A DNA stretch of 58,521 nucleotides from Yinghuangia seranimata. Its GTDB lineage: Bacteria; Actinomycetota; Actinomycetes; Streptomycetales; Streptomycetaceae. Both the position numbers and the translations under genes were made by a program. Location of the stretch: NCBI RefSeq assembly GCF_029953285.1, contig NZ_JASAOI010000001.1, forward strand, positions 1 to 58,521. The letters are read 5' to 3'. Under the pieces are notes generated by a model. That model did no database searches, was not told the origin of the DNA, and saw nothing but the letters and a program-made list of their open reading frames with translations. Positions 11,189 to 58,444 of the stretch are shown here, in pieces (positions within the stretch are counted from its first letter, which is position 1; the number at the start of each line of letters is the position of its first letter).

Positions 11189-11423
11189 GGCGTCCCCCTG
11201 ACTCTCCGCGATCCGCCTCCTCGGCGGCGACGACCGGACGAAAGACGCGGATCGGGCGCTAAAGCGGATGGATCCCAACCAACTTCATTATCCGCCACTG
11301 GAGTTGATCGTCCAGGGCGCACAGGGGGCGCCTGGCGACATCCTCGCCGCCGACACCCTGATGGCGCAATCCGTGGGGTGCGCGTCGTGGACGCCATCGG
11401 CACGCGCGCGGCAGGCTGGACGC

Positions 11424-12395
11424 GTGCCCACCACCCGAACCGTCGTCTTCGTCGTCTTCCCCGGCTTCCAGGCGCTCGACCTGACCGGCCCCCACGAGGT
11501 CTTCGCGCAGGCCGGCGGCTACCGGTGCGTCGTCGCCGCGCACACCGCCGGACCGGTGCCGTCCAGCAGCGGACTCCCCGTGCACGCGGGGGCCGCGCTC
11601 GCCGACCTCGCCGCGGAGCGCATCGACACGCTCGTCGTCGTCGGCGGGTCCGGCGTCGACCAGGCGTGCCGCGACCTGCCGACGGTGGAGTGGGTGCGGG
11701 ACGCCGCGCCGCGGGCCCGGCGCGTCGCGTCCGTCTGCAGCGGCGTGCTGCTGCTCGCCGCCGCGGGGGTGGTCGCCGGGAAGACCGTCACCACGCACTG
11801 GAGCCGCGCCGCGCAGGTCGCGCGCGTCCATCCGGACGTCACGGTCGACGCCGACCCGATCTTCGTGCGTGACGGCTCGGTCTGGACGTCGGCCGGCGTC
11901 ACCGCGGGCATGGACCTCGCGCTCGCCCTCGTCGAGGACGACCTCGGCCGCGAGGCCGCCCACGCGGTCGCCCGCGAACTCGTGCTGTTCCTGCGTCGCC
12001 CCGGCAGCCAGTCGCAGTTCAGCGTGCCGATGCGCGCCGCCCGCAGCACCACCGACCCCATCCGCGCCGCGACCGACGCGGTCGCCACCGACCCGGCCGC
12101 CCGGCACACCGTCGACACGCTCGCCGCCCGCGCGGGGCTCAGCGCACGGCACTTCCAACGCCGGTTCACCGCCGAGTGCGGCGTCTCGCCGACCGCGTAC
12201 GTCGAGGAGGTCCGCGTCGAGGCGGCCCGCCGCGCACTCGCCGAGGGCGACGACCCCGTCGAGTCGGTCGCGCGGCACTGCGGCTTCGGCACCGCCGAGA
12301 CGCTGCGCCGCACGTTCCACCGGCGGCTCGGCGTCTCGCCGTCGGACTACCGCGAGCGGTTCCGCAGCAGCCGGCCCGCCGCCCCGCGCCCGTGA
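11424..12395 (+). CDS. GlxA-family regulator (DJ-1/PfpI domain plus AraC HTH)
   Basis: 323 residues. The N-terminal DJ-1/PfpI domain (about 1-180) has VFPGFQALDLTGPHEVF and the nucleophile-elbow-like SVCSGVLLLAAAG. The C-terminal AraC/XylS DNA-binding domain (about 220-315) carries two HTHs (LAARAGLSARHFQRRF and VARHCGFGTAETLRRTF). The GTG at 11424 places the DJ-1 strand at the N-terminus; a longer frame from 11268 adds residues not typical of the family. It is followed 39 bp later by a stand-alone DJ-1/PfpI enzyme, which it probably controls. Confidence 0.9.
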   Translation: MPTTRTVVFVVFPGFQALDLTGPHEVFAQAGGYRCVVAAHTAGPVPSSSGLPVHAGAALADLAAERIDTLVVVGGSGVDQACRDLPTVEWVRDAAPRARRVASVCSGVLLLAAAGVVAGKTVTTHWSRAAQVARVHPDVTVDADPIFVRDGSVWTSAGVTAGMDLALALVEDDLGREAAHAVARELVLFLRRPGSQSQFSVPMRAARSTTDPIRAATDAVATDPAARHTVDTLAARAGLSARHFQRRFTAECGVSPTAYVEEVRVEAARRALAEGDDPVESVARHCGFGTAETLRRTFHRRLGVSPSDYRERFRSSRPAAPRP

Positions 12396-12434
12396 CCCCC
12401 CGACGGACCCCGTCACGCACCGAAAGGACCACTC

Positions 12435-13046
12435 GTGACCACGTACGGCCTACTGATGTTCGACGACTTCGAGGAACTGGACCTGGTCGGCCCCTGGGAG
12501 GTCTTCGGCGCCTCCGCGATGCTGCGCGAGCGGGACGGCCACGGCGACCGCGTCGTCGCCGTCGCTGAGCGCCCCGGGCCGGTGCGGGCCGCGAAGGGCC
12601 TTGTCACCACGGCCGAGTTCGGGCTCGCCGACCACCCGCCGCTCGACGTCCTGCTGGTCCCCGGCGGCATGGGCACCCGCCGCGAGGTCGCCAACGAGGT
12701 GCTCATGGGGTGGATCGCCAAGACGGCCGAGACCGCCGAGTGGGTGACCAGCGTGTGCACCGGCTCGCTGCTCCTGCACGAGGCCGGGCCGGCGCGGGGG
12801 CGCCGTGTGGCCACGCACCACGGGTTCGAGGACACGCTGGAAGCCCGCGGCGACATCACCGTCGTCCGCGACGCCCGCTACGTCGTGGACGGCAACCTGG
12901 CTACCTCGCAGGGCGTTTCGGCCGGCATCGACATGGCGCTGTGGCTGGTCGGACGGCTGCACGGCCGCGACCACGCGCGCGCCGTACGCCGCTACATCCA
13001 GTACGAGCCCGCGCCGCCGTACCTGGCCGACGAGCCCGTCGCCTGA
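12435..13046 (+). CDS. DJ-1/PfpI family protein, isonitrile-hydratase-like
   Basis: 203 residues, a single DJ-1/PfpI domain. The motifs LMFDDFEELDLVGPWEVF, LLVPGGMGTRRE and the nucleophile elbow SVCTGSLLL (Cys about residue 115) resemble isonitrile hydratase (InhA) and related GATase1-like proteins. The family hydrates isonitriles to N-formamides or acts as a glyoxalase/deglycase; which applies here is not decided by sequence. GTG start with AAAGGA upstream. It probably forms an operon with the GlxA-type regulator before it, which carries a paralogous domain. Confidence 0.88.
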   Translation: MTTYGLLMFDDFEELDLVGPWEVFGASAMLRERDGHGDRVVAVAERPGPVRAAKGLVTTAEFGLADHPPLDVLLVPGGMGTRREVANEVLMGWIAKTAETAEWVTSVCTGSLLLHEAGPARGRRVATHHGFEDTLEARGDITVVRDARYVVDGNLATSQGVSAGIDMALWLVGRLHGRDHARAVRRYIQYEPAPPYLADEPVA

Positions 13047-47425: not shown

Positions 47426-48685
47426 ATGCGGGTGGTCGTCGCAGGACAGGGATATGTCGGGCTGCCGCTGGCGGTACGTGCCGCCCAGGTCGGGCACGAC
47501 GTGGTGGGGTACGACGTCGACGCGCGGCGGGTCAAGCTGCTCACCGCGGGCGAGTCGTACGTCGAGGACGTTCCGTCGGCGGACCTCGTCGAGGTCATCG
47601 GCGCGGGCCGCTACCGGCCCACCGGCGACGAGGCGGACCTCCGCGGCTTCGACGTCGCGGTCGTCACGGTGCCGACGCCGCTGCGCGAGGGCACGCCGGA
47701 CCTCAGCTACATCGAGGAGTGCTCCCGCACCCTCGCGCGCCACCTGCGTCCGGGCGCGACGGTCGTCCTGGAGTCGACGACGTTCCCGGGCACCACGGAG
47801 GAGCTCGTCGGCCCGATCCTCGCGGCCGGCTCCGGGCTGGTCGTCGGCACCGACTTCCGCCTCGGCTACAGCCCCGAGCGCATCGACCCGGGCAACCCCA
47901 CGTGGAACCTGGTCAACACGCCCAAGGTCGTCTCGGGGGTCGACGCGCGGTCGCTCGCGGCCGTCGAGGCGTTCTACGGCACGATCGTCGAGCGCACGGT
48001 GCCGGTGTCCTCGCCGCGCGAGGCGGAGCTGGCGAAGCTGCTGGAGAACACGTTCCGGCACGTGAACATCGCGCTCGTCAACGAGGTGGCGATGTTCGCG
48101 CACGAGCTCGGCATCGACGTGTGGGAGGCGATCGACGCCTGCTCCACCAAGCCGTTCGGCTACATGCGCTTCACCCCGGGCCCGGGCGTCGGCGGGCACT
48201 GCCTGCCGGTGGACCCGTCGTACCTGTCGTGGCGGGTCGAGCGCGCCCTCGGGCAGAGCTTCCGGTTCGTGGAACTGGCCAACGACGTCAACAGCCACAT
48301 GCCGGACTACGTCGTGCGCCGCCTCACCGCCGCGTTCAACGCCCGGAGCCGGTCGGTGCGCGGTTCGTCGGTGCTGATCCTCGGGCTCGCGTACAAGAAG
48401 AACACCGCGGACGCGCGCGAATCGCCCGCGGCGCGGATCGCCACGCTGCTGCTCGACCTGGGCGCCGAGGTGAGCGCGGTGGACCCGCACGTCGACCTGG
48501 CGCAGCCGTTCGACGCGCGCCTGACGCGCGTCGAGTTGGACGCGGACGTCGTGCGTTCCGCCGACGCGGTGGTGCTGCTGGTCGACCACGACGACGTCGA
48601 CCTGGCGCTGGTCATCGAGCACGCGCAGTACCTGCTGGACTGCCGCGGTGTGCTCGACCGGGGCGCCCCGGTCGAGGCCCTGTAG
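47426..48685 (+). CDS. Nucleotide-sugar 6-dehydrogenase (WbpA/TviB-type)
   Basis: 419 residues. The Rossmann loop is VVAGQGYVGLPLA. ESTTFPGTTEELV and STKPFGYMRFTPGPGVGGHCLPVDPSYLSWR are strikingly WbpA/TviB-like, with the catalytic Cys in GGHCLPVDP. The enzyme family oxidises UDP-GlcNAc (or UDP-ManNAc) to the uronic acid with two NAD+. The product would give an acidic amino sugar for the extracellular polymer built by the rest of the locus. ATG with AAAGGGGA upstream. UDP-glucose dehydrogenase is less likely from these motifs. Confidence 0.9.
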   Translation: MRVVVAGQGYVGLPLAVRAAQVGHDVVGYDVDARRVKLLTAGESYVEDVPSADLVEVIGAGRYRPTGDEADLRGFDVAVVTVPTPLREGTPDLSYIEECSRTLARHLRPGATVVLESTTFPGTTEELVGPILAAGSGLVVGTDFRLGYSPERIDPGNPTWNLVNTPKVVSGVDARSLAAVEAFYGTIVERTVPVSSPREAELAKLLENTFRHVNIALVNEVAMFAHELGIDVWEAIDACSTKPFGYMRFTPGPGVGGHCLPVDPSYLSWRVERALGQSFRFVELANDVNSHMPDYVVRRLTAAFNARSRSVRGSSVLILGLAYKKNTADARESPAARIATLLLDLGAEVSAVDPHVDLAQPFDARLTRVELDADVVRSADAVVLLVDHDDVDLALVIEHAQYLLDCRGVLDRGAPVEAL

Positions 48686-48749: not shown

Positions 48750-49928
48750 TCAGCGCCCGTGGTTCGTGAGGAGCTCGGCGAGGCCGTCGGCGAACCGCCG
48801 GCTCATCTCCTCGATCGTGTAGCGGTCGGCGTCCTTGGCGCACTGCTCGGTGAGCTCGGCGAGCCGCCGCGGGTTCTCCAGGAGGTCGACGACGCCGTCG
48901 ACGAACGAGGCCGGGTCGTTGCGGGTGACCACCGCGTTGCGGCCGTGCTCCAGGTACTCGGACTCGGGGCCGTTCCAACGCTGTTCGGTGGTGACGATCG
49001 GGCTGCGCAGCGCGAAGGAGTCGACGGCGATCAGGCCGACGAGCCCGGGCACGAGCAGCACGTCGGAGACCGTGCCGAGCAGCGCCTTGTCGTCGCCGAA
49101 CGCCTGTCCGACCGGAACGACAGCCGAGCAGCGCTCGGCGGCCTCGGCCACCAGCCCCCGGTCGGGACCGGTGCCGGCGACCAGCAGCCGGAAGCCCGGC
49201 AGCCGCCGCTCGATCTGCTCGGCGGCCTCGATGAGGAACGGGATACGCTTGGCGGGGCTGAGCGCGCCGACGAACAGCCCTGTGCGTCCCGGCGTGAGGT
49301 CGTACCGGCGGCGCAGCTCCGCGCGTTCCTCGTCGGTCACGCCCGCGTACACGCGGCTGAGCCCCGTGGTGTCGACCGAGTTCTGGACGACGGTGACGCG
49401 CTCCGCCGGGAAGCCGTGGTCGACGACGGCCCGCTTGCCGCCCTCGGTGTAGGAGAAGAACCACTTCGCGCGCCGGGTCAGCGCGTACTTCAGGGACTGC
49501 TCGAGCGCGGACTGCGGGCGGTCGTAGGTGCGGCCGTGGTCCCACATGGCGACGATCGGGCCGCGCCCGAACCGCTGCCGCACCAACATCGGATACAGCT
49601 CCATGTTGCGCAGCGCCTGGTCGACGACGAACACGTCGGTCTCGCGGGTCAGATCGCCGAGCCGCTTGTGGACGAACGGCCGCCCCGCGATCCGGGCGCT
49701 CCGTTGGCGCAGGCGCACGGCGCCCTCGACCTCGACGACGTCGTCGCGGGCCCGCTGGTCGGCCGTGTACGGCTCGCCGTAGGCGACCACGAGGGTGATT
49801 CCGCGCGTGTCGAGGTCCGCTTCCAGATGCCGGAAGAACGGCACGCGAAATTCTGACAGGAACGGGACGACCAGGGTGACGTGCGGGCGCCGCGGGCCGC
49901 CGCGGCCGGTACGGACCAGTCTCTCCAT
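48750..49928 (-). CDS. GT4-like glycosyltransferase
   Basis: 392 residues, GT-B fold. The N-terminal domain opens with VTLVVPFLSEFRVPFFRHLEADL. The C-terminal domain carries FVGALSPAKRIPFLIEAAEQI and LLVAGTGPDRG, with the donor-binding E-x7-E region replaced by a looser pattern near LVGLIAVDSFALRSPIVTT. It should transfer a sugar from a nucleotide donor to a lipid-linked repeat unit. The ATG at 49928 has no strong ribosome binding site. It converges on the dehydrogenase gene and diverges from the methyltransferase gene. Donor and acceptor are unknown. Confidence 0.85.
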   Translation of the reverse strand: MERLVRTGRGGPRRPHVTLVVPFLSEFRVPFFRHLEADLDTRGITLVVAYGEPYTADQRARDDVVEVEGAVRLRQRSARIAGRPFVHKRLGDLTRETDVFVVDQALRNMELYPMLVRQRFGRGPIVAMWDHGRTYDRPQSALEQSLKYALTRRAKWFFSYTEGGKRAVVDHGFPAERVTVVQNSVDTTGLSRVYAGVTDEERAELRRRYDLTPGRTGLFVGALSPAKRIPFLIEAAEQIERRLPGFRLLVAGTGPDRGLVAEAAERCSAVVPVGQAFGDDKALLGTVSDVLLVPGLVGLIAVDSFALRSPIVTTEQRWNGPESEYLEHGRNAVVTRNDPASFVDGVVDLLENPRRLAELTEQCAKDADRYTIEEMSRRFADGLAELLTNHGR

Positions 49929-50009: not shown

Positions 50010-50855
50010 ATGAGGCACACCGCTCTGACCCGACGCATCGCCGCCAGCCCCCTGGCATCCGCGGCGGCCCTGCCGACACGGCTGACCGCCCTCGCCCGGC
50101 ACAACACGCAGCTGATGCGCGCCCAGGCGACGTGGCTCGTGCGATCGCGCGAACACGTGCACTACACCTACGACCTCAAGCCGCTCAACCTCGAACACCT
50201 CGCGTGGACGGTGTCCGCCGCCACCGGCGCGCCGGTCGCGGACGTCCGCGGCTACCTCGCCGAGGTGCGCGACGACGCCGAACTGCGCGCCACCATCGAG
50301 GCCGGGCTGGCCGCCAGCCCGCGCCGCGCCACCACGGACCGCGTGGTGCGCTACGGGCGGCGCATCGGCTGGTACGCGTTCGTCCGCGCGCTGCGCCCCG
50401 AGTTCGTCGTGGAGACCGGCACCAACCGGGGCCTCGGCAGCGCGGTGATCGCGGCGGCCCTGCTGCGCAACGGCCACGGCACGCTGGCCACGTGCGACCT
50501 GGACGACCGCTCCGGCGAGCTGATCCGCTCGCCGTACGACAAGGTGGTCGAGCACGTCGTCGCCGACTCGCTCGCGTTCCTGGCCGGTCCGGTCGCGCGC
50601 CGTCACCCGGTCGACCTGTTCGTCAGCGACACCGCGGTCAGCGAGCGCCACGAGGAGGCCGAACTGGCCTCCATCACACCGCTGTTGGCCCCGGGCGCGG
50701 TCGTCCTGGCGACGATGGCGCACAAGTGGAGCGCACTCCCGAAGTGGGCGGAGGAACAGAGCCTCGCGTTCTCGTACTTCGCCGAACGCCCCGAGCAGCA
50801 CTGGTACCCGGGCCTCGGCATCGGCGCGGCCTACCCCGCCAAGGCCGGTTCGTGA
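50010..50855 (+). CDS. Class I SAM-dependent methyltransferase
   Basis: 281 residues. The Rossmann-like core begins near residue 125 with FVVETGTNRGLGSAVIAAAL (motif I), GTLATCDLDDRSGELI (the acidic ribose-binding loop) and HPVDLFVSDTAVS, typical of class I methyltransferases of the macrocin/TylF or CmcI kind. An N-terminal helical region of about 110 residues has no known fold. ATG with AAGGAG upstream. It overlaps the deacetylase gene by four bases, so it probably methylates a sugar in the same polymer. Confidence 0.82.
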   Translation: MRHTALTRRIAASPLASAAALPTRLTALARHNTQLMRAQATWLVRSREHVHYTYDLKPLNLEHLAWTVSAATGAPVADVRGYLAEVRDDAELRATIEAGLAASPRRATTDRVVRYGRRIGWYAFVRALRPEFVVETGTNRGLGSAVIAAALLRNGHGTLATCDLDDRSGELIRSPYDKVVEHVVADSLAFLAGPVARRHPVDLFVSDTAVSERHEEAELASITPLLAPGAVVLATMAHKWSALPKWAEEQSLAFSYFAERPEQHWYPGLGIGAAYPAKAGS

Positions 50856-51889
50856 CCGTCTCCGTGAGATCCGCCGGAAAGCCGGCCGCCCAGGTCCGGC
50901 TTTCCGGCTGGCACGCGCGCGTGGACGCCTGGCGGGCGCCGGACGTCGTGCTGCGCCGCTCCCCGGCGCAGGCGTGGTTCCGGCGCCGCGCGGCCGGCCG
51001 GCTCGCGGTGCTCGGCTACCACGGGGTGGAGGACGCGGACGCGTTCGCCGCGCAGTTGGACATGCTGTGCCGCGTCGCGCACCCGGTGTCGCTCGCCGAG
51101 GTCGAGAAGGCCGTGCACGGCGGACGGCCGCTGCCCCCGCACAGCGTGCTGGTCACCTTCGACGACGGCGACGCGACCGTCTTCGCCGACGGATTGCCGA
51201 GGCTCGCCGCGCGCGGGATCCCGGCCGTGTGCTTCGTCGTCCCGAGCCTCCTCGACACCGACGCGCAGTTCTGGTGGGAGGAGGCCGTGTCGCTGTGGGA
51301 CCACGGCGGGACGTCGCGGCACCTGCCGTTCGGCCGAGGCGCGAACGCGCAGTCGGCCGTGGCCGCCCTGAAGCTCCTGCCGGACGACGAACGGCGGCTC
51401 GCACTGGCCGAGTTGCGGTCCACCGCGACGCGCCCGGCGCCGCCGTACCGCCAGCTCACCTCGGACGAAGTGCGTGCGCTGGACGCCGGCGGTGTCGTGG
51501 TCGGCAACCACACGCTGAGCCATCCCTGCCTCGACCGCTGCACCGACGCACGCGTCGAGGAGGAGGTAACCGGGGCGCACGAGCGGCTCACCGAGGTGCT
51601 CGGGCACGCGCCGACGACCTTCGCCTATCCCAACGGCAACGTCGACGAGCGCGCGGACCGGGTGCTGGACAAGCTGGGCTACCGCACCGGATTCCTCTAC
51701 AACCACGCGCTCGCCGACCCGCGTTCGTGTCCGCCGCTGCGGATCGACCGGCTCCGGGTGTCGACGACGATCGGGCCCGACCGGCTGGCGACCGTCCTGT
51801 CCGGACTGCACCCGGCGGTGTTCAGAACCGCGCGCGGCGCCGCGAGGGGCGCCGCGCGCGTCCTTCAGCCCTTGGCCAGGACCTCGTGA
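50852..51889 (+). CDS. Polysaccharide deacetylase (CE4, NodB-like)
   Basis: 345 residues. The NodB barrel has LAVLGYHGV, the motif VLVTFDDGDATVF (Asp-Asp), VVGNHTLSHPCL (the HxxxH metal ligands), and FAYPNGNVDERA; these are the catalytic and metal residues of CE4 deacetylases. It removes N- or O-acetyl groups from a polysaccharide or a nucleotide-linked precursor. No signal peptide is apparent, so it may act in the cytoplasm on a lipid-linked repeat. GTG overlaps the methyltransferase stop (GTGA). Its end overlaps the convergent phosphatase by 25 bp. Confidence 0.9.
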   Translation: MTVSVRSAGKPAAQVRLSGWHARVDAWRAPDVVLRRSPAQAWFRRRAAGRLAVLGYHGVEDADAFAAQLDMLCRVAHPVSLAEVEKAVHGGRPLPPHSVLVTFDDGDATVFADGLPRLAARGIPAVCFVVPSLLDTDAQFWWEEAVSLWDHGGTSRHLPFGRGANAQSAVAALKLLPDDERRLALAELRSTATRPAPPYRQLTSDEVRALDAGGVVVGNHTLSHPCLDRCTDARVEEEVTGAHERLTEVLGHAPTTFAYPNGNVDERADRVLDKLGYRTGFLYNHALADPRSCPPLRIDRLRVSTTIGPDRLATVLSGLHPAVFRTARGAARGAARVLQPLARTS

Positions 51890-52416
51890 CCGGCCGTCAG
51901 CACGGCGGCCAGACGCGCCACCGCCCGGTCGATCAGGTGGGCGCAGGCGTGTAGTTCGGCCAGCGGGAGGCCGTCGGGGTCGGCGATGTCGTCCGACTCC
52001 GGCGGCAGCCCGGACGGGCGGCCCCGGGTCGCCCCGGCCCGCGCCACCACGTCGCGCGGGTCGTCGGCCAGTCCGTCGGTGAGGCGGACGAACTCCGTGA
52101 GGGTGAAACAGCGCCGCATCGCGGCCGGGCGCAGCCGGACGGCCGCCTCGCGGTGCTCCCGGGCCAGCCCGAGCACCAGATCCGCTTTGTCGAGGTGCGC
52201 CGCGTCGAGCCGACGGGCCGTGAACCCGTCCGGATCCGCGCCGAGTTCCCGCAGCAGTCCGACGGTGGCGGCGTCGAGCGGCCGACCCGGCCACGCGTGT
52301 GTTCCGGCACTGGCGACCCGGAGGTCGGCGCCGGGCCGAGCGGCCAGGAGCCGCTCGGCGATCGGCGACCGGTACAGGTTGCCCGTGCAGACGAACAGGA
52401 CGGAGAAGGAGCTCAT
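51865..52416 (-). CDS. Low-molecular-weight protein tyrosine phosphatase (Wzb-like)
   Basis: 183 residues. The P-loop CTGNLYRSPIAE (C-x5-R) is at residues 10-21, and the general acid Asp lies in the DDIADPDG segment. The insert before it is longer than in Wzb. It should dephosphorylate the tyrosine tail of the co-polymerase kinase encoded just upstream, with which it overlaps by four bases (ATGA). The cycle of phosphorylation and dephosphorylation sets polymer length and export in capsule systems. Confidence 0.92.
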   Translation of the reverse strand: MSSFSVLFVCTGNLYRSPIAERLLAARPGADLRVASAGTHAWPGRPLDAATVGLLRELGADPDGFTARRLDAAHLDKADLVLGLAREHREAAVRLRPAAMRRCFTLTEFVRLTDGLADDPRDVVARAGATRGRPSGLPPESDDIADPDGLPLAELHACAHLIDRAVARLAAVLTAGHEVLAKG

Positions 52417-53879
52417 CGGCCCTCCACCGGCGGGGCGTCGGCGCCCACCTTCAGCGCCTCGGTGCGCACCGCGAGCACGGCCTCGGTCAGCGGCTGGTCG
52501 TCCGCGGACTTCCCGTAGCCGTACCCGTATCCGTAGCCATAGCCGTATCCGTAGCCGTACTTGCCGACGCCCTGGAGCCGGGCCATGTTCAGCACCGCGC
52601 CCAGCAGCGGTGCGCCGACGGAGTTCAGGGAGCCGACGGTGGCGCGGATGCGCTCGGCGGGGGTCTTGCCGGCGCGCGCCACCACGATCACGCCGTCGGC
52701 GAGCGGGGCGAGGCCCAGGGTGTCCGCGACGGGGAGCACCGGCGCGCTGTCCACGATCACGATGTCGAAGGCGTCGGCGAGGTCGCGCAGGACCTGCCGC
52801 ATGCGCCCGCTCGCCAGGACCTCCGCCGGGTTCGGCGGCATCGGTCCGGAGGTGAGCACCGCGAGCTGGTTGTCGCCCCACCACTGCAGGACGTCGGCGG
52901 AGGCCGCGGCGCCGATGAGCACGGTGGTCAGGCCGGCCTCCTGCACCAGGCCGAACACCCCGGCGACGCTGGGGTTGCGCAGGTCGGCGTCGACGAGGCA
53001 CACCCGGCGTCCGGACTCCGCGAGCGAGAGCGCGAGGTTGGCGGCGGTGCTCGTCTTGCCCTCGCCCGGCACCGAGCTGGACACGAGGATCACCCGGGGC
53101 TTGTGGTCCACCTGGGTGAACTGGAGGTTGGTGCGCACCATGCGGAACGCCTCGGCACGCCCGCTGAGCGCGCCGACGCGGACGGCGATCGGCTGGTCCT
53201 GCGCGCCCTTGTCCATCGGCACGGCGCCCAGCACGGGGAGGCCCGTCACGTCGGTGAGTTCCTCGGTGCCGCGCAGGCTCGTGTCGAGAGTGCGGCGCAG
53301 CACCGCCAGGCCCACGCCCGCCACGAGTCCCGCGAACAGGCCGAGTCCGGCGTTGAGCAGCGGGCGCGGGGTGAAGGGGGAGTCCGGCGGGACCGCGCTG
53401 CGCGTGACCCCGATGTACACCGGCGCGGTGCCGCCCCCGGGCGGCGTCTCCAGCCGGCCGATCAGCTGACCGGCCTCGTCGGCGGCCTCGTTCGCGATCT
53501 CCGCGGCGCGCACGGCGTCGACGTCGGTCGCGGAGATGTCGATCAGCACGGTCTCGGGCTTGACCGAGGCGCTGATCCGCTTCGCCAGCCGCTCGGCCGA
53601 GGTGTCCAGGCCGAGCCGGTGGACGACGCCGGCCGCGACCCGCGGGCTGGCGATGATGTCCGCGTACGACTGCACGCGGGCCTGCGAGAACACGCTGCCC
53701 TGGGTGAGCTCGGAGAGGTTGCCGCTGGCACGCGTGGAGACGAAGACCTGGCTGGTGGCGCGGTACTGCGGGGTGGTGCCGGCGGTCCAGGCGATCCCGC
53801 AGGCCAGTCCGAGCGCCGCGAGCAGGGTGATCGGGAGCCACGAGCGGGCCAGGGTCCTGAGGTAGCCGCGGAGGTCCAA
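52413..53879 (-). CDS. Wzz-like co-polymerase/tyrosine autokinase module with its own start
   Basis: 488 residues if begun at TTG 53879. It opens LDLRGYLRTLARSWLP, as homologues do, with AAAGGA eight bases upstream. Two membrane helices (near residues 20 and 215) flank an extracytoplasmic Wzz domain. The C-terminal BY-kinase has Walker A GEGKTS near residue 265, Walker A' VCLVDADLRNPS and Walker B FDIVIVDSAP. Near residue 440 comes an eight-fold Tyr-Gly tail, the autophosphorylation cluster. It sets chain length of the polymer and is opposed by the coupled phosphatase. In the assembled frame it may also be made only as the C-terminal part of the 911-residue fusion. Confidence 0.85.
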   Translation of the reverse strand: MDLRGYLRTLARSWLPITLLAALGLACGIAWTAGTTPQYRATSQVFVSTRASGNLSELTQGSVFSQARVQSYADIIASPRVAAGVVHRLGLDTSAERLAKRISASVKPETVLIDISATDVDAVRAAEIANEAADEAGQLIGRLETPPGGGTAPVYIGVTRSAVPPDSPFTPRPLLNAGLGLFAGLVAGVGLAVLRRTLDTSLRGTEELTDVTGLPVLGAVPMDKGAQDQPIAVRVGALSGRAEAFRMVRTNLQFTQVDHKPRVILVSSSVPGEGKTSTAANLALSLAESGRRVCLVDADLRNPSVAGVFGLVQEAGLTTVLIGAAASADVLQWWGDNQLAVLTSGPMPPNPAEVLASGRMRQVLRDLADAFDIVIVDSAPVLPVADTLGLAPLADGVIVVARAGKTPAERIRATVGSLNSVGAPLLGAVLNMARLQGVGKYGYGYGYGYGYGYGYGKSADDQPLTEAVLAVRTEALKVGADAPPVEGR

Positions 53880-55148
53880 CGTGCGTCCTTTCGGAGCGGG
53901 CCGGGTCCGGGGTCCCGAGGACTCCGGATCGGTGTGCGGGAGGCGCAGGCCGCGGCGGGGCTTCGGAAGCTCCACGCCGGTCGGGCCGCGCCCGAGACTG
54001 GTGCCGACGACCAGCGCGACGGGCACCGTGACGAAGCTGTAGACGATCAGGTTGGAGGTGGCGATGTTGAGCGAGAACGCCACGACCATCAGCAGGGCGG
54101 CCTGGTGGATCGCCCAGTCCTCGGCGTTGTCGGCGCGGCGTCGCCGCCGGTAGGCCCCCAGGCCGAGGAGGACCACCGCGGCGGCCCACAGGCCCAGGCC
54201 GAGCAGCCCGAGGTCGTGCCACAGCCGCAGGTAGTCGTTGTGCGGGTGCCCGACGGCCCCGCCGGGTTCGGCGAGCAGGTGGCCGACGCTGCCGATGCCG
54301 TGGCCGAACCACGGCTTCAGCTGGATTGACTCCCACGTGGTGGACCACATCTCGCCGCGCCCGGAGGTGCCCACCTGGATGCCGCCCACGCCGCGGTTGT
54401 CGTTGTTGGTGAAGCGGTCGCGGATCGGGGCGTACCGGGTGACCAGCAGGTAGCCGGCCACGACGATCCCGGAGGCCAGCGCGACGAGCTTGACGAACTG
54501 CCCGCGGCTGCGCCCCCGGGCCACCAGGCCGAGCAGCAGCAGCGCGCACACCGCCGCCGACGTGCGCGACAGGCTCAGCACGTCGGCGACGACGAGCAGG
54601 ACGACGGCCGCGAGTCCCGTACGGGCGCCGCGGCCGGCCAGCGCGACCGCGGCGACGACGCCGATCCACAGGACCTCGCCGAACATGCGTGCGGGGAACA
54701 CGACGTAGTTGCCCGGGCCGAACACCGCGACGCCCGCCAGGTATCCGCTCGCCAGGACCACCGCCGTCGCGCGCAGCCAGCGCAGCAGGGACAGCGCGTG
54801 GACCGGCGTGGCCCCCGCGGACGCCACCAGCAGCACCGCCGGGAAGGTCAGGTAGACCAGCAGGTTCTGCACCGCGATCATGTCGTGGTGCAGCAGCGTG
54901 GAGGCGACCGCGAGCGCGGTGAACGCCCACAGCGGCCGGGGGACGCGGGCCCAGAACGCGGCCGCCGTGGAGGTCCCGGCGACCTGCGCCCGTCGGTCCG
55001 CGACCAGTTCGGGCAGGACGAGCAGGCAGTAGAGGAACAGCACCGCCGTCGCCGGCCCGGTCACGCCGTAGCGTGCGATGAAGACGCCGTCCACCATCCA
55101 GAACGCCGCGACGGCCCCTCGCGCGAGGGGTTGCGAGTGACGCTTCAC
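52413..55148 (-). CDS. Fused O-antigen-polymerase (Wzy)/co-polymerase-BY-kinase reading frame
   Basis: An unbroken frame of 911 codons. Residues of about 1-390 are a polytopic Wzy/O-antigen-ligase-like protein with about ten helices and a loop with HPHNDYLRLWHDLG. A basic Pro-rich linker of about 40 residues follows with no stop codon. Residues 424-911 are the Wzz-BY-kinase module described in the entry at 52413-53879. Both ends of the linker should be cytoplasmic, so a fusion is topologically possible. The GTG lies five bases after the LCP stop. Polymerase, length control and kinase are normally separate proteins. An error removing a stop codon, or internal initiation, are alternatives. Confidence 0.7.
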   Translation of the reverse strand: MKRHSQPLARGAVAAFWMVDGVFIARYGVTGPATAVLFLYCLLVLPELVADRRAQVAGTSTAAAFWARVPRPLWAFTALAVASTLLHHDMIAVQNLLVYLTFPAVLLVASAGATPVHALSLLRWLRATAVVLASGYLAGVAVFGPGNYVVFPARMFGEVLWIGVVAAVALAGRGARTGLAAVVLLVVADVLSLSRTSAAVCALLLLGLVARGRSRGQFVKLVALASGIVVAGYLLVTRYAPIRDRFTNNDNRGVGGIQVGTSGRGEMWSTTWESIQLKPWFGHGIGSVGHLLAEPGGAVGHPHNDYLRLWHDLGLLGLGLWAAAVVLLGLGAYRRRRRADNAEDWAIHQAALLMVVAFSLNIATSNLIVYSFVTVPVALVVGTSLGRGPTGVELPKPRRGLRLPHTDPESSGPRTRPAPKGRTLDLRGYLRTLARSWLPITLLAALGLACGIAWTAGTTPQYRATSQVFVSTRASGNLSELTQGSVFSQARVQSYADIIASPRVAAGVVHRLGLDTSAERLAKRISASVKPETVLIDISATDVDAVRAAEIANEAADEAGQLIGRLETPPGGGTAPVYIGVTRSAVPPDSPFTPRPLLNAGLGLFAGLVAGVGLAVLRRTLDTSLRGTEELTDVTGLPVLGAVPMDKGAQDQPIAVRVGALSGRAEAFRMVRTNLQFTQVDHKPRVILVSSSVPGEGKTSTAANLALSLAESGRRVCLVDADLRNPSVAGVFGLVQEAGLTTVLIGAAASADVLQWWGDNQLAVLTSGPMPPNPAEVLASGRMRQVLRDLADAFDIVIVDSAPVLPVADTLGLAPLADGVIVVARAGKTPAERIRATVGSLNSVGAPLLGAVLNMARLQGVGKYGYGYGYGYGYGYGYGKSADDQPLTEAVLAVRTEALKVGADAPPVEGR
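52512..52559 (-). repeat. Eight-fold hexanucleotide repeat encoding (Tyr-Gly)8
   Basis: Eight TAY-GGN units in the kinase tail. Tyrosine and glycine codons vary (TAC/TAT, GGC/GGA/GGG), so the array is not a recent exact duplication. Confidence 0.9.
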
Positions 55149-55153
55149 CGCGA

Positions 55154-56188
55154 TCAGTCGCGATCCGCGCGCAGCGCCGCGAAGAGCTCGTCGGCGGCGG
55201 GCTGTTGCAGCTCGTCCCTGTTGGGGTCGACCGGGTAAGGCCGACGTGGCACGGTGTGGAATTCCACGCGGCCCTCCGGAATCGCGCGCAGTTTCTCGGT
55301 CAGGCCGTAGAGCGCGCTCAGGCTGTCCAGGCCGGGGTCGGCGGTGAGCGCGCCGGTCGCGGCGTCGAGCACCTGGTACATGCGCACCGGGTTCAGCAGC
55401 GTGTCGCTCCCGCGGATCTTCGCCGACAGCAGCTTCATGAACCGCTGCTGGCGGGAGATGCGGTTGGTGTCGCTGCCGTCGCCGACGTACTCGCGGGCCC
55501 GGACGTACGCCAGCGCGTCCTCGCCGCGCAGCAGGTGCGGCCCCGCGGTCAGGTCCAGGCCGACGTTCGGGTCGCGTTCGGCCGTCGGGAGGGTGACCTC
55601 GACGCCGTCGACCGCGTCGACGAGCCGCTTGAACCCCTCGAAGCCGAGCACCAGGTGGTGGTCGACGCGGATCCCGGTGAGTTTCTCGAACGTGCGGATC
55701 GTGCACGCCGCGCCGCCGCGCTCGAACGCCCAGTTGAACTGTTCGTACCGGGCCGGGCCCTCGGTCAGGTCGGTGCGGCCGCAGTCGGGGATCCACACCA
55801 TCAGGTCGCGCGGCACGCTGACCACCTGCGCGCGCTGCCCGTCGCCCGCGATGTGCAGCAGCAGCACCGTGTCCGAGCGCGCGCTGCCCAGTTCGGGGCG
55901 GTAGTCCGAGCCCAGGACGAGGATGTTCTGCGCCGAGCCGGTCGCCTTGGGACGCTCGGCCTCGTGCCGCGACAGCTCCTTGTCGGTGGCGTGGTCGGTG
56001 TGGATGTTGTCGTTCAGGTGTCCGTACAGCCACAGCCCGCCCGTGATCGCCACGCCGACCAGCAGCACGAGCGCCGCGGCGAACACGCTCAGCACCACCG
56101 TGACACGGCGGCGCGAGGCGGGTGCGGGTGCGGGCGCGTTCCACGCCCACTCGAGCGGGGATTCCGCGTCCGGCTCCTCATCGTGCAT
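55154..56188 (-). CDS. LytR-CpsA-Psr (LCP) family glycopolymer ligase
   Basis: 344 residues. A cytoplasmic N-terminus (about 30) and one helix (VTVVLSVFAAALVLLVGVAITGGLWLYG) precede the LCP domain. The domain has NILVLGSDYRPELGSARSDTVLLLHI and VVSVPRDLMVWIP, both carrying catalytic Arg/Asp residues, and the closing TNRISRQQRFM motif. LCP enzymes transfer lipid-linked glycopolymers to peptidoglycan outside the membrane. This places the polymer on the cell wall. It is followed after five bases by the polymerase start. The ATG at 56188 has GAGGCGG a little far upstream. Confidence 0.93.
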   Translation of the reverse strand: MHDEEPDAESPLEWAWNAPAPAPASRRRVTVVLSVFAAALVLLVGVAITGGLWLYGHLNDNIHTDHATDKELSRHEAERPKATGSAQNILVLGSDYRPELGSARSDTVLLLHIAGDGQRAQVVSVPRDLMVWIPDCGRTDLTEGPARYEQFNWAFERGGAACTIRTFEKLTGIRVDHHLVLGFEGFKRLVDAVDGVEVTLPTAERDPNVGLDLTAGPHLLRGEDALAYVRAREYVGDGSDTNRISRQQRFMKLLSAKIRGSDTLLNPVRMYQVLDAATGALTADPGLDSLSALYGLTEKLRAIPEGRVEFHTVPRRPYPVDPNRDELQQPAADELFAALRADRD

Positions 56189-56328
56189 CAATAGGCACCG
56201 CCTCACGTTCGGAGTATTTCGCGCGCGCCCCTATCCGGTGACGGGCCTTCGCCGTGTAACAGTTAATGCGCATTTCCGGGAGTTTCCAGCGTGACACACA
56301 GCGTTTCCGCTGAAGGAGTGAGTAGGAC

Positions 56329-56955
56329 TTGCGCGTCACCACCACCCGTCGCTCGGTTCTCCGGTTTCCCGTCAAACGACTAGTGGACGTCGTGGGAAGC
56401 GGCCTGCTTTTGATTCTCACCGCGCCGGTAATGGCGTTGGTATATCTGCTCGTGCGGAGCACCTCCCGGGGCCCGGCGCTGCACCGCCAGATGCGTGCCG
56501 GACGCCACGGGAAGCCCTTCTGCATGCTCAAGTTCCGCACGATGCACGTCGGCGCGCACCGCCAGCGCGCGGCACTGTCCGACCGCAACGAGGCCGACGG
56601 CCACCTGTTCAAGGTGCGCAACGACCCGCGCATCACCAAGGCCGGGCGCCACCTGCGCCGCCTGTCGCTCGACGAACTGCCGCAGCTGGTCAACGTGCTC
56701 CGCGGCGACATGTCGCTGGTCGGCCCGCGCCCGCTGCCGTGCGAGGAGTCCGACTACAAGGGCGAGGCCCGGCGCCGCCTGCTGGTACCGCCCGGCATCA
56801 CCGGCCTGTGGCAGGTCAGCGGCCGCTCGAACCTGCCGTGGGACGACATGGTCCGGCTCGACCTGCACTACGTCGACAACCACTCGGTGACGATGGACCT
56901 GGCCATCCTCGCCCGCACGCTCCCCGCCGTGCTCTCCGCGCGTGGCGCGCACTGA
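56329..56955 (+). CDS. Initiating sugar transferase (WcaJ/EpsL-type)
   Basis: 208 residues of the polyprenyl-phosphate hexose-1-phosphate transferase family, short form. One re-entrant or membrane helix (VDVVGSGLLLILTAPVMALVYLLV) is followed by the conserved domain: FCMLKFRTMHVGA, the DE pair in LSLDELPQLVNVLRGDMSLVGPRPLP, and PGITGLWQVSGRS. It loads the first sugar phosphate on undecaprenyl phosphate. The TTG start matches the N-terminus; TAGGA and a more distant GAAGGAG precede it. It overlaps the flippase by 14 bases. Confidence 0.93.
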   Translation: MRVTTTRRSVLRFPVKRLVDVVGSGLLLILTAPVMALVYLLVRSTSRGPALHRQMRAGRHGKPFCMLKFRTMHVGAHRQRAALSDRNEADGHLFKVRNDPRITKAGRHLRRLSLDELPQLVNVLRGDMSLVGPRPLPCEESDYKGEARRRLLVPPGITGLWQVSGRSNLPWDDMVRLDLHYVDNHSVTMDLAILARTLPAVLSARGAH

Positions 56956-58444
56956 CGCCGTGCCGGCACCGTCCGCCGCCGCCCCCGCGGCGCCGCCCGC
57001 GAACGCGGGCGCACGGGCGACGCTGTCGGCACTGGCCTGGAACTACTCGGCGGCCGTCGCGGGCGCGCTGCTCCAACTGTGCTACACCGGATTCACCGCG
57101 CGCGTCGTCGCACCGCGCGAGTTCGGCGCGTACGCGGCGGCGGCCGCCGCGCTGACCGTGTTCGGCTACGTCGCCGGCGCGGGCCTGTCCACCTACCTGC
57201 TCCGCGCCGAGGTCCTCACCCGCGGGCTGGTGCGTACCGCCTACCGCGCGGCGTTCGCGAGCGGCGCACTGTGCTTCGTCGCGACGATGCTGTTCGCGCC
57301 GACCGCCGCCACGCTGTGGGGTATGCCGGAAATCGAGCCGGTGGTACAGCTGTTCGGGTGCTACTTCCTCACCCAGCCGGCCTCCCTCGTGGCGACGGCC
57401 GGGCTGCGCCGGATGGGCCGCGCCCGCGCGGCCGCGCTCGCTGAGACCGGGGCGCAGTTCGCGGGCATGGCCGCCGGGGCCGTGCTGCTGACCGCCGGAT
57501 GGTCGCCGTACGGACTGGTCGCCGCGTCGTGCCTCACGCCGACGGTCACCCTGCTGGTGGCCGCGCCGCTGATGGCCCGCTGCGTCCTGCCGACCGGCGA
57601 CCGGGTCACCATCCCGGCCGTCCTCGGCGTGTCGGGGGCCTTCGCGCTGTACGGCATCCTGCAGATGGTCACCATGGACGCCGCGCTGTGGGCCGTCGCC
57701 CGGCACCTTGGCCCCGACGCCGCCGGGCAGTTCTCCCGGGCACTGCTCGCGGTGTCGCTGCCCGCGTCGCTGCTCGCCCAGGCGCTGCGCCGGGCGGTGA
57801 TGCCGGCCATGGCGGAGGTCAACGGCGGGGGAGGCTCGTTGCGGGGCGTGCCGACCGACGTGCTCAACCTCGGCTCGGCGCTCGGCTGCGTGTCGTTCGG
57901 CGTCCTGGCCGGTGTCGGGCAGCCCGCGCTGCGGCTGCTGCTCGGCCCAGGCTGGGGAGCCGCCGGGATCCTGGTCACGGTGTTCGCGGTCTGCTGGCCC
58001 CTGATGCTGCTCTGCCAGCTCGGCTACGCGGTCGACGAGGTGGCCAAGGAGCTGCTCGTGCTCTTCCGCGTCCAACTGCTGGTGCTGGCCGCGACGTCCG
58101 TACTGCTGACGGCCGCGGTCGCCGGGACCGGCAGCCTGGTGCTGACCGCCGCGGCGAGCCCGCTCGCGGCCGGGGTCGGGCATGTGGCGCAGCTGGTGCG
58201 CTGGCGGCGGGTGGGGCTGTGCGCGCCCGCGACACTCGTGCGGCCGTACCTCGTGCACGCCGCTCTCGGCACGGCGCTGGGCGTCGCGGGATGGGTGGGC
58301 GTGCACAGCATCGACGCGGGCGCGGAACTGCGGCTGCTGACCGGGCTGCTGGCGATGGTCCCGGTCGGGCTCGCCGCGTACGCGGTGCGGCGCTGGATCC
58401 CCGTGTACGAGGCGGCGGTCGCGCGAGGGCTCGTCAGGCGGTGA
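56942..58444 (+). CDS. Wzx-type polysaccharide flippase (MOP superfamily)
   Basis: 500 residues with about twelve to fourteen membrane helices, beginning after an Ala/Pro-rich cytoplasmic tail of about 25 residues. LAWNYSAAVAGALLQLCYTGFTARVVAPREFGAYAAAAAAL is the family's first-helix signature. It would flip the lipid-linked repeat unit to the outer leaflet for the Wzy-like polymerase. The GTG at 56942 overlaps the transferase stop; a second GTG at 56960 is possible. The last codons run close to the low-complexity window end. Confidence 0.9.
   Translation: MARTDAVPAPSAAAPAAPPANAGARATLSALAWNYSAAVAGALLQLCYTGFTARVVAPREFGAYAAAAAALTVFGYVAGAGLSTYLLRAEVLTRGLVRTAYRAAFASGALCFVATMLFAPTAATLWGMPEIEPVVQLFGCYFLTQPASLVATAGLRRMGRARAAALAETGAQFAGMAAGAVLLTAGWSPYGLVAASCLTPTVTLLVAAPLMARCVLPTGDRVTIPAVLGVSGAFALYGILQMVTMDAALWAVARHLGPDAAGQFSRALLAVSLPASLLAQALRRAVMPAMAEVNGGGGSLRGVPTDVLNLGSALGCVSFGVLAGVGQPALRLLLGPGWGAAGILVTVFAVCWPLMLLCQLGYAVDEVAKELLVLFRVQLLVLAATSVLLTAAVAGTGSLVLTAAASPLAAGVGHVAQLVRWRRVGLCAPATLVRPYLVHAALGTALGVAGWVGVHSIDAGAELRLLTGLLAMVPVGLAAYAVRRWIPVYEAAVARGLVRR

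Follow-up and report, generated by a model that had tools for sequence, protein, structure and literature searches.

An in-frame fusion of a Wzy-type polymerase with a Wzc-type co-polymerase and tyrosine kinase in Yinghuangia seranimata, with a possible internal start for a free kinase

A 58,521-nucleotide (nt) stretch of DNA from the soil actinomycete Yinghuangia seranimata (RefSeq assembly GCF_029953285.1, contig NZ_JASAOI010000001.1, positions 1 to 58,521 of the forward strand; hereafter the window) contains a gene that raises two questions. The first is whether a Wzy-type polysaccharide polymerase, a Wzz-type chain-length regulator and a tyrosine kinase of the BY-kinase family are indeed joined in one protein, and the second is whether the same gene also yields a free kinase from a start codon buried within it. 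Based on the reading frame, the profile matches and the comparison with related genomes, we conclude that the fusion of polymerase, co-polymerase and kinase is real and well supported. We further favour, with moderate confidence, the reading that the fusion protein is accompanied by a free kinase made from the buried start. The fused gene and its parts are as follows, where PCP stands for polysaccharide co-polymerase.

52413..55148, minus strand: fused Wzy-Wzz-BY-kinase gene, 911 amino acids (aa), about 95 kDa; called start GTG 55148, stop TGA 52413
53997..55148, minus strand: Wzy polymerase module, residues 1-384; Pfam Wzy_C; 12 membrane helices counted on the model
54246..54434, minus strand: large Wzy loop, residues 239-301 (63 residues), outside if the N-terminus is inside; R264, W280, H283 and G284 conserved
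53880..53996, minus strand: basic proline-rich linker, residues 385-423; 9 K/R, 3 D/E and 8 P of 39 residues; pI 11.9
53286..53882, minus strand: Wzz/PCP part, residues 423-621, ending with the second membrane helix (596-621); Pro-rich motif starting at residue 588
52536..53153, minus strand: BY-kinase domain, residues 666-871; Walker A, A', B and EX2RX2R motifs
52512..52559, minus strand: tyrosine tail (YG)8, residues 864-879; coded by a hexanucleotide tandem repeat

The minus-strand frame from 55148 to 52413 is unbroken by stops over 911 codons and encodes a Wzy_C polymerase, a linker and a complete Wzc-type co-polymerase with its BY-kinase. The protein matched the Pfam families Wzy_C (residues 180-321, 63.1 bits, cut-off 31.7) and Wzz (residues 423-509, 44.1 bits, cut-off 25.5), as well as the NCBIfam BY-kinase family TIGR01007 (residues 666-871, 153.4 bits, cut-off 108.05). 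The open frame and these matches bear out the proposal of the initial annotation, which was made from the window sequence, that polymerase, chain-length regulator and tyrosine kinase occupy one 911-codon frame. Its description of a basic, proline-rich linker without a stop holds for the composition listed above, and the product sizes that it gave (about 95 and 50 kDa) agree with the predicted masses of 95.2 kDa for the fusion and 50.4 kDa for a free kinase starting at TTG 53879. The start of the fused gene is a call, since upstream of GTG 55148 the same frame is open into the gene of a LytR-CpsA-Psr (LCP) protein; the next in-frame ATG lies at 55097.

A continuous frame could also be an artefact in which faulty sequencing or assembly conceals a stop codon or a frameshift. 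In favour of such an error, an open 117-nt linker of this composition is expected by chance with a probability of about 0.70 (5,000 shuffles; 0.69 for the linker of the relative G002 and 0.12 for that of G125). The stop-free linker is thus unremarkable by itself, and what is not due to chance is the full-length in-frame match in two other genomes, together with the strength of the internal start site described below. These two genomes are Yinghuangia soli (G002), whose fusion of 917 aa has 57% identity to that of the window (58% over the matched stretch), and a member of another genus of Streptomycetaceae (G125), with 60% identity (62% over the matched stretch). Both proteins retain the Wzy and kinase residues intact, and their linkers comprise 39 codons in G002 and 61 in G125, compared with 39 residues in the window. 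A stop codon was looked for in the linkers of relatives, a test fixed beforehand, and none was found in the two other fused genomes. A hidden stop or frameshift is therefore largely refuted and a very improbable explanation, and we rejected an artefact of sequencing or assembly on the grounds that two further assemblies carry the same in-frame fusion, that of G125 in a single contig of 7.9 Mb.

Although real, the fusion is rare. A search with the Wzy part matched four of the 297 genomes drawn from the family at 1e-30, including the window's own; three of them carry the fusion, and the fourth (G021) has a free Wzy in a 427-codon frame. A second family draw centred on G125 gave three matches in 344 genomes, all already known, and within the genus of G125 only G125 itself matched among 70 genomes. 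These draws overlap, and in the family draws the best five candidates per genome were scored. In a draw from the phylum, 41 of the 296 genomes (the window's own included) had a strong kinase match among the best five candidates scored per genome, and none of the 52 matches listed outside the window had an open frame longer than 647 aa. A first scan of genome contigs confirmed no relative, and a second gave 21 loci, comprising two strong Wzy relatives (fused in Y. soli, free in Streptomyces tailanensis) and 19 distant ones. Among 253 matching plasmid records, none covered 80% of the fusion in one place; in eight listed records from Streptomyces and Rhodococcus plasmids the match begins at query residues 418-424.

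The C-terminal half of the protein has the motifs PGEGKT at 694-699 (Walker A), CLVDADLR at 717 and VIVDSAP at 797, as well as EX2RX2R, according to the Walker A/A'/B and EX2RX2R patterns that we take to be those of BY-kinases; PGEGKT is invariant in the alignment of the fusions. The Wzz domain lies on the kinase chain, with predicted membrane helices at 437-457 and 596-621. The extracellular stretch of this part has 138 residues, presumably fewer than in E. coli Wzc. By its sequence, with Walker motifs, a two-helix Wzz on the same chain and a C-terminal tyrosine cluster, this half can be classified as a BY-kinase of the PCP-2a type. A Foldseek comparison of the Wzc part with E. coli Wzc (7nhr) gave an E value of 1.6e-24. 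In E. coli Wzc (7nhr, 3la6), as in the window, a two-helix Wzz, a kinase with Walker A, A' and B motifs and a tyrosine tail are on one chain and a low-molecular-weight phosphatase adjoins, whereas the window protein has in addition a whole 12-helix polymerase at its N-terminus. In the actinobacterial proteins named ‘polysaccharide biosynthesis tyrosine autokinase’, judged by the eight plasmid records above, the beginning of the kinase half nearly coincides with that in the fusion. The repeat that encodes the tail (52513-52560) has a unit of 6 bp in 7.8 copies, and the number of YG units is eight in the window, five in G125 and in the free kinases of G072 and G036 (see below), and three in both copies of G002. 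Given the tandem-repeat coding and these differing counts, slippage could alter the number of phosphorylation sites.

For the polymerase, comparison by sequence with PDB chains gave no match, and we used an AlphaFold2 model of the Wzy module built on an alignment of 18 sequences, with a mean predicted local distance difference test score (pLDDT) of 73.8 and a predicted template-modelling score (pTM) of 0.77 (mean pLDDT of the other four models 57-64). The best Foldseek match of this model in the PDB was the O-antigen ligase WaaL (7tpg; E value 2.3e-6, template-modelling score 0.55), followed by RodA and FtsW complexes. The module resembles Wzy_C polymerases and WaaL in its Wzy_C match above the cut-off, its fold, its large loop and a conserved arginine and histidine. 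Residues R264, W280, H283 and G284 of the loop, as well as R195, are kept in at least 90% of the 18 sequences. The predicted topology permits the fusion: with the N-terminus of Wzy inside, the loop with R264 and H283 would be outside and the linker inside, as Wzc needs, so that a cytoplasmic end of Wzy would be joined to a cytoplasmic start of Wzc and no extra helix would be required. In the model of the whole protein (pTM 0.49), the placement of the modules relative to each other is not predicted, and confidence is high in the Wzc part only (pLDDT mostly above 85); linker residues 381-420 have a pLDDT of 30-34.

The second question concerns two features at the junction of linker and kinase.

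53886..53891, minus strand: internal ribosome-binding site AAAGGA; its codons AAA (Lys) and GGA (Gly) are the rarer ones for these amino acids
53877..53879, minus strand: internal TTG, putative free-kinase start, codon 424; product of 488 aa, about 50 kDa; aligned with the free kinase starts in G072, G036 and G002C2

The initial annotation had placed TTG 53879, behind AAAGGA, where homologous kinases begin, and three unfused clusters confirm this position. These clusters (in G072, in G036 and in a second copy in Y. soli, G002C2) share a phosphatase, a methyltransferase and a gene for what we take to be a deacetylase-like protein, and carry a free kinase whose NTG start aligns with TTG 53879 and is preceded by a purine-rich site at the same distance. 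In these three closest unfused relatives, in-frame stops precede the kinase start by 37 (G072), 30 (G036) and 28 (G002C2) codons. The aligned GTG of G036 has no other start codon between it and the in-frame stop, whereas the starts in G072 and G002C2 were deduced from the alignment, since earlier in-frame start codons exist there. The LCP gene lies directly upstream of the kinase in G036 and G002C2, with no polymerase between them and gaps of 79 and 236 nt. G072 has, beside its free kinase and in divergent orientation, a Wzy_C gene that scores 56.8 bits and differs from the fused Wzy, as well as a second, weaker Wzy_C-like gene (24.5 bits, below the cut-off of 31.7; L051:8201-9595 and 11250-12551). 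In S. tailanensis (L063) and G021 (L054), the nearest unfused relatives of the polymerase, Wzy is a separate gene, unlike in the window. The free Wzy frame of S. tailanensis ends where a methyltransferase match begins (L063:7250-7301), its last residues being YKGFSRA, and the start site of the next gene may thus be embedded in the polymerase end.

How the linker arose is best seen in G125. Over its last 120 nt, the linker of G125 shares 77.5% identity with the sequence that precedes the free kinase of G072 (E value 1e-22; a one-base gap), and the G+C content at third codon positions (GC3) is 0.62 in this linker, compared with 0.89 and 0.91 in its flanks. This identity and low GC3 indicate that, at least in G125, a leader that was probably non-coding became the linker. 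In the window and in G002 the linker GC3 is 0.85 and 0.77, respectively, and resemblance to the leader is confined to the last few codons. The regions upstream of the kinase in G072 and G002C2 align over 229 nt with 65.5% identity, the outer part of this alignment in G072 running into the start of a predicted divergent gene. The comparison points to a free kinase with a leader as the older state, at least for G125. In a kinase tree of 13 rows, fused forms are interleaved with free ones (two changes), but support for the relevant branches is modest, and a tree with all fusions in one clade was not rejected (approximately unbiased test, p-AU 0.119). Repeated fusion or transfer is possible; the alternative is one fusion event passed on vertically.

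The strength of its site bears on whether the buried start is used. AAAGGA at 53891-53886 lies 6 nt before TTG 53879-53877 and pairs with the 16S tail at -9.5 kcal/mol. Only 7 of 465 internal NTG codons (1.5%) from 13 genes, TTG 53879 itself among the seven, are at least as strong. The internal site of G125 has -8.4 kcal/mol (2.6% of internal NTG codons as strong), and the sites of ten free kinases range from -6.3 to -10.7. Across the three fused genomes, an NTG codon is present in all and a strong ribosome-binding site in two. The linker amino acids are poorly conserved except for the codons over the old ribosome-binding site, for which the window uses AAA (4 of 39 Lys codons in six cluster genes) and GGA (22 of 242 Gly codons). 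The called polymerase start of the window is weak (-3.3) compared with the kinase start (-9.5) and lies just after the LCP stop, so that the free kinase could outnumber the fusion.

Several observations weigh against a second product. The internal site of Y. soli is weak (-4.9 kcal/mol; 21.5% of internal NTG codons as strong), and the polymerase of G125 has a start no weaker than the internal one (-10.2 against -8.4), so a low ratio of fused to free protein would not be general. In G072 an in-frame ATG precedes the aligned TTG by 35 codons, so that its leader is no more than presumably non-coding. Folding of the RNA around the buried start does not fall below that of shuffled sequences (z 0.56) and shows nothing unusual. 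An unused leftover site would look identical, the fused genomes known are only three, and it is from sequence that we infer the second product. Of the dual-product proposal in the initial annotation, the fusion and the position of the start stand, while the free kinase stays a putative product whose site is weak in one of three fusions. The coupling of polymerisation to the state of the kinase, which that proposal expected from physical fusion, is likewise putative.

In the main rival explanation, the fused protein is the only product, the internal start is an unused relic, and either every ring subunit carries a polymerase or only some of the polymerase domains fit the ring formed by the co-polymerase. 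Y. soli retains the fusion despite its weak internal site, as this explanation would have it, and TTG starts are generally weaker than ATG. We nevertheless consider it rather unlikely, given that strong sites persist in two fusions at 60% protein identity, with the rarer AAA and GGA in that of the window, and that a published Wzz-Wzy complex has about one polymerase per eight co-polymerases (PMC10030265). Another alternative is post-translational cleavage of the fusion within the linker, which would leave an ordinary separate Wzy and Wzc. The linker could be cut, being poorly conserved, basic and of low model confidence (pLDDT 30-34), but no conserved cleavage motif was seen in the three linkers, and we regard cleavage as improbable.

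If, as we favour, both the fusion and a free kinase are made, the following mechanism can be proposed. A wzy gene would have come to adjoin, in the same frame, the leader of a wzc gene already present, leaving Wzy covalently joined via a basic cytoplasmic linker to a Wzc-type co-polymerase and tyrosine kinase. The leader, with its ribosome-binding site and NTG start, would now be coding and is probably still used to make a second, free Wzc. Fused and free chains might then assemble in one ring, with few tethered polymerases among many co-polymerase subunits, and the kinase tail and the adjoining phosphatase might open and close this ring around the polymerase. In the enterobacterial common antigen system, about eight WzzE surround one WzyE, which lies within the ring (PMC10030265). 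A ring of Wzc around Wzy has likewise been proposed (PMC12881504), opened by phosphorylation of the tail and rebuilt by Wzb (PMC8285477; PMC12881504). If only the 1:1 fusion were made, eight polymerases would come to a ring for which one is proposed, a mismatch that free Wzc made from the buried start would remove. We suggest, tentatively, that one gene gives tethered Wzc and an excess of free Wzc from the ancestral start, which sets the number of polymerases per ring. In this scheme, initiation at the buried start, rings of fused and free chains, and the control of polymer synthesis are each deduced.

Polymerase and co-polymerase form one complex in WzzE-WzyE as well, but that complex consists of separate proteins in a ratio of about 8:1 (PMC10030265) with a co-polymerase that lacks a kinase, whereas in the window they are covalently joined and a kinase is present. 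Searches of an open-access library, which lacks most subscription papers, showed no account of Wzy fused to Wzc or Wzz; the parts are known, and their arrangement is undescribed as far as these searches show. As a conserved natural fusion, the gene provides independent genetic evidence that polymerase and co-polymerase act together. It bears directly on the open question of the contact between PCP-2 proteins and Wzy, and by putting the polymerase C-terminus beside the first helix of the co-polymerase it offers structural studies a ready-made construct. If there are two products, the cell would set the ratio of polymerase to regulator within one gene, and the system would be a natural, covalently locked Wzy-Wzc machine with its subunit ratio written in two ribosome-binding sites.

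The genomes of the window and of G125 have one kinase each above the TIGR01007 cut-off, namely the fused one, and Y. soli has a second, free one. The internal site is thus weak only where a separate free kinase exists, which fits a need for free Wzc, although three genomes prove nothing. The fused gene of Y. soli (L050, G002:C1:348000-367000) is outside the polysaccharide cluster, flanked by a predicted open reading frame (ORF) that matches no Pfam family and by the gene of a HEPN_Swt1/DUF499 protein. Among the ORFs of at least 200 aa in the 16 kb that surround the syntenic cluster of Y. soli (L053), only two have a mean hydropathy above 0.25, those of the free kinase and of the flippase, and the orphan fusion may therefore act in trans for this cluster.

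The neighbours of the fused gene in the window are the following.

51865..52416, minus strand: low-molecular-weight tyrosine phosphatase (Wzb-like); Pfam LMWPc, 80.9 bits; ATG overlaps the kinase TGA by 4 nt
55154..56206, minus strand: LCP protein; Pfam, 133.6 bits; stop 5 nt before the polymerase GTG
56329..56955, plus strand: initiating sugar-phosphate transferase (Bac_transf); profile match
56942..58444, plus strand: Wzx-type flippase (Polysacc_synt_3); profile match
48750..49928, minus strand: glycosyltransferase of the same cluster; profile match
50010..50855, plus strand: methyltransferase of the same cluster; profile match; syntenic in G125, G072, G036 and G002C2
47426..48685, plus strand: UDP-sugar dehydrogenase; profile match

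With an initiating transferase, flippase, polymerase, co-polymerase/kinase and phosphatase together, the locus can be assigned from its gene content to the Wzx/Wzy-dependent clusters. The context of flippase, sugar transferase, kinase, phosphatase and LCP protein favours a polymerase function for the Wzy module, although its best solved fold match is a ligase. The window genome has one other Wzy_C match, on contig C28, and no other kinase above the TIGR01007 cut-off. A second kinase-like protein is encoded on the same contig (G000:C28:106124-106645, L123); proteins of this type occur in four of the five genomes checked, in frames of 605-694 aa that score 84-93 bits, below the TIGR01007 cut-off.

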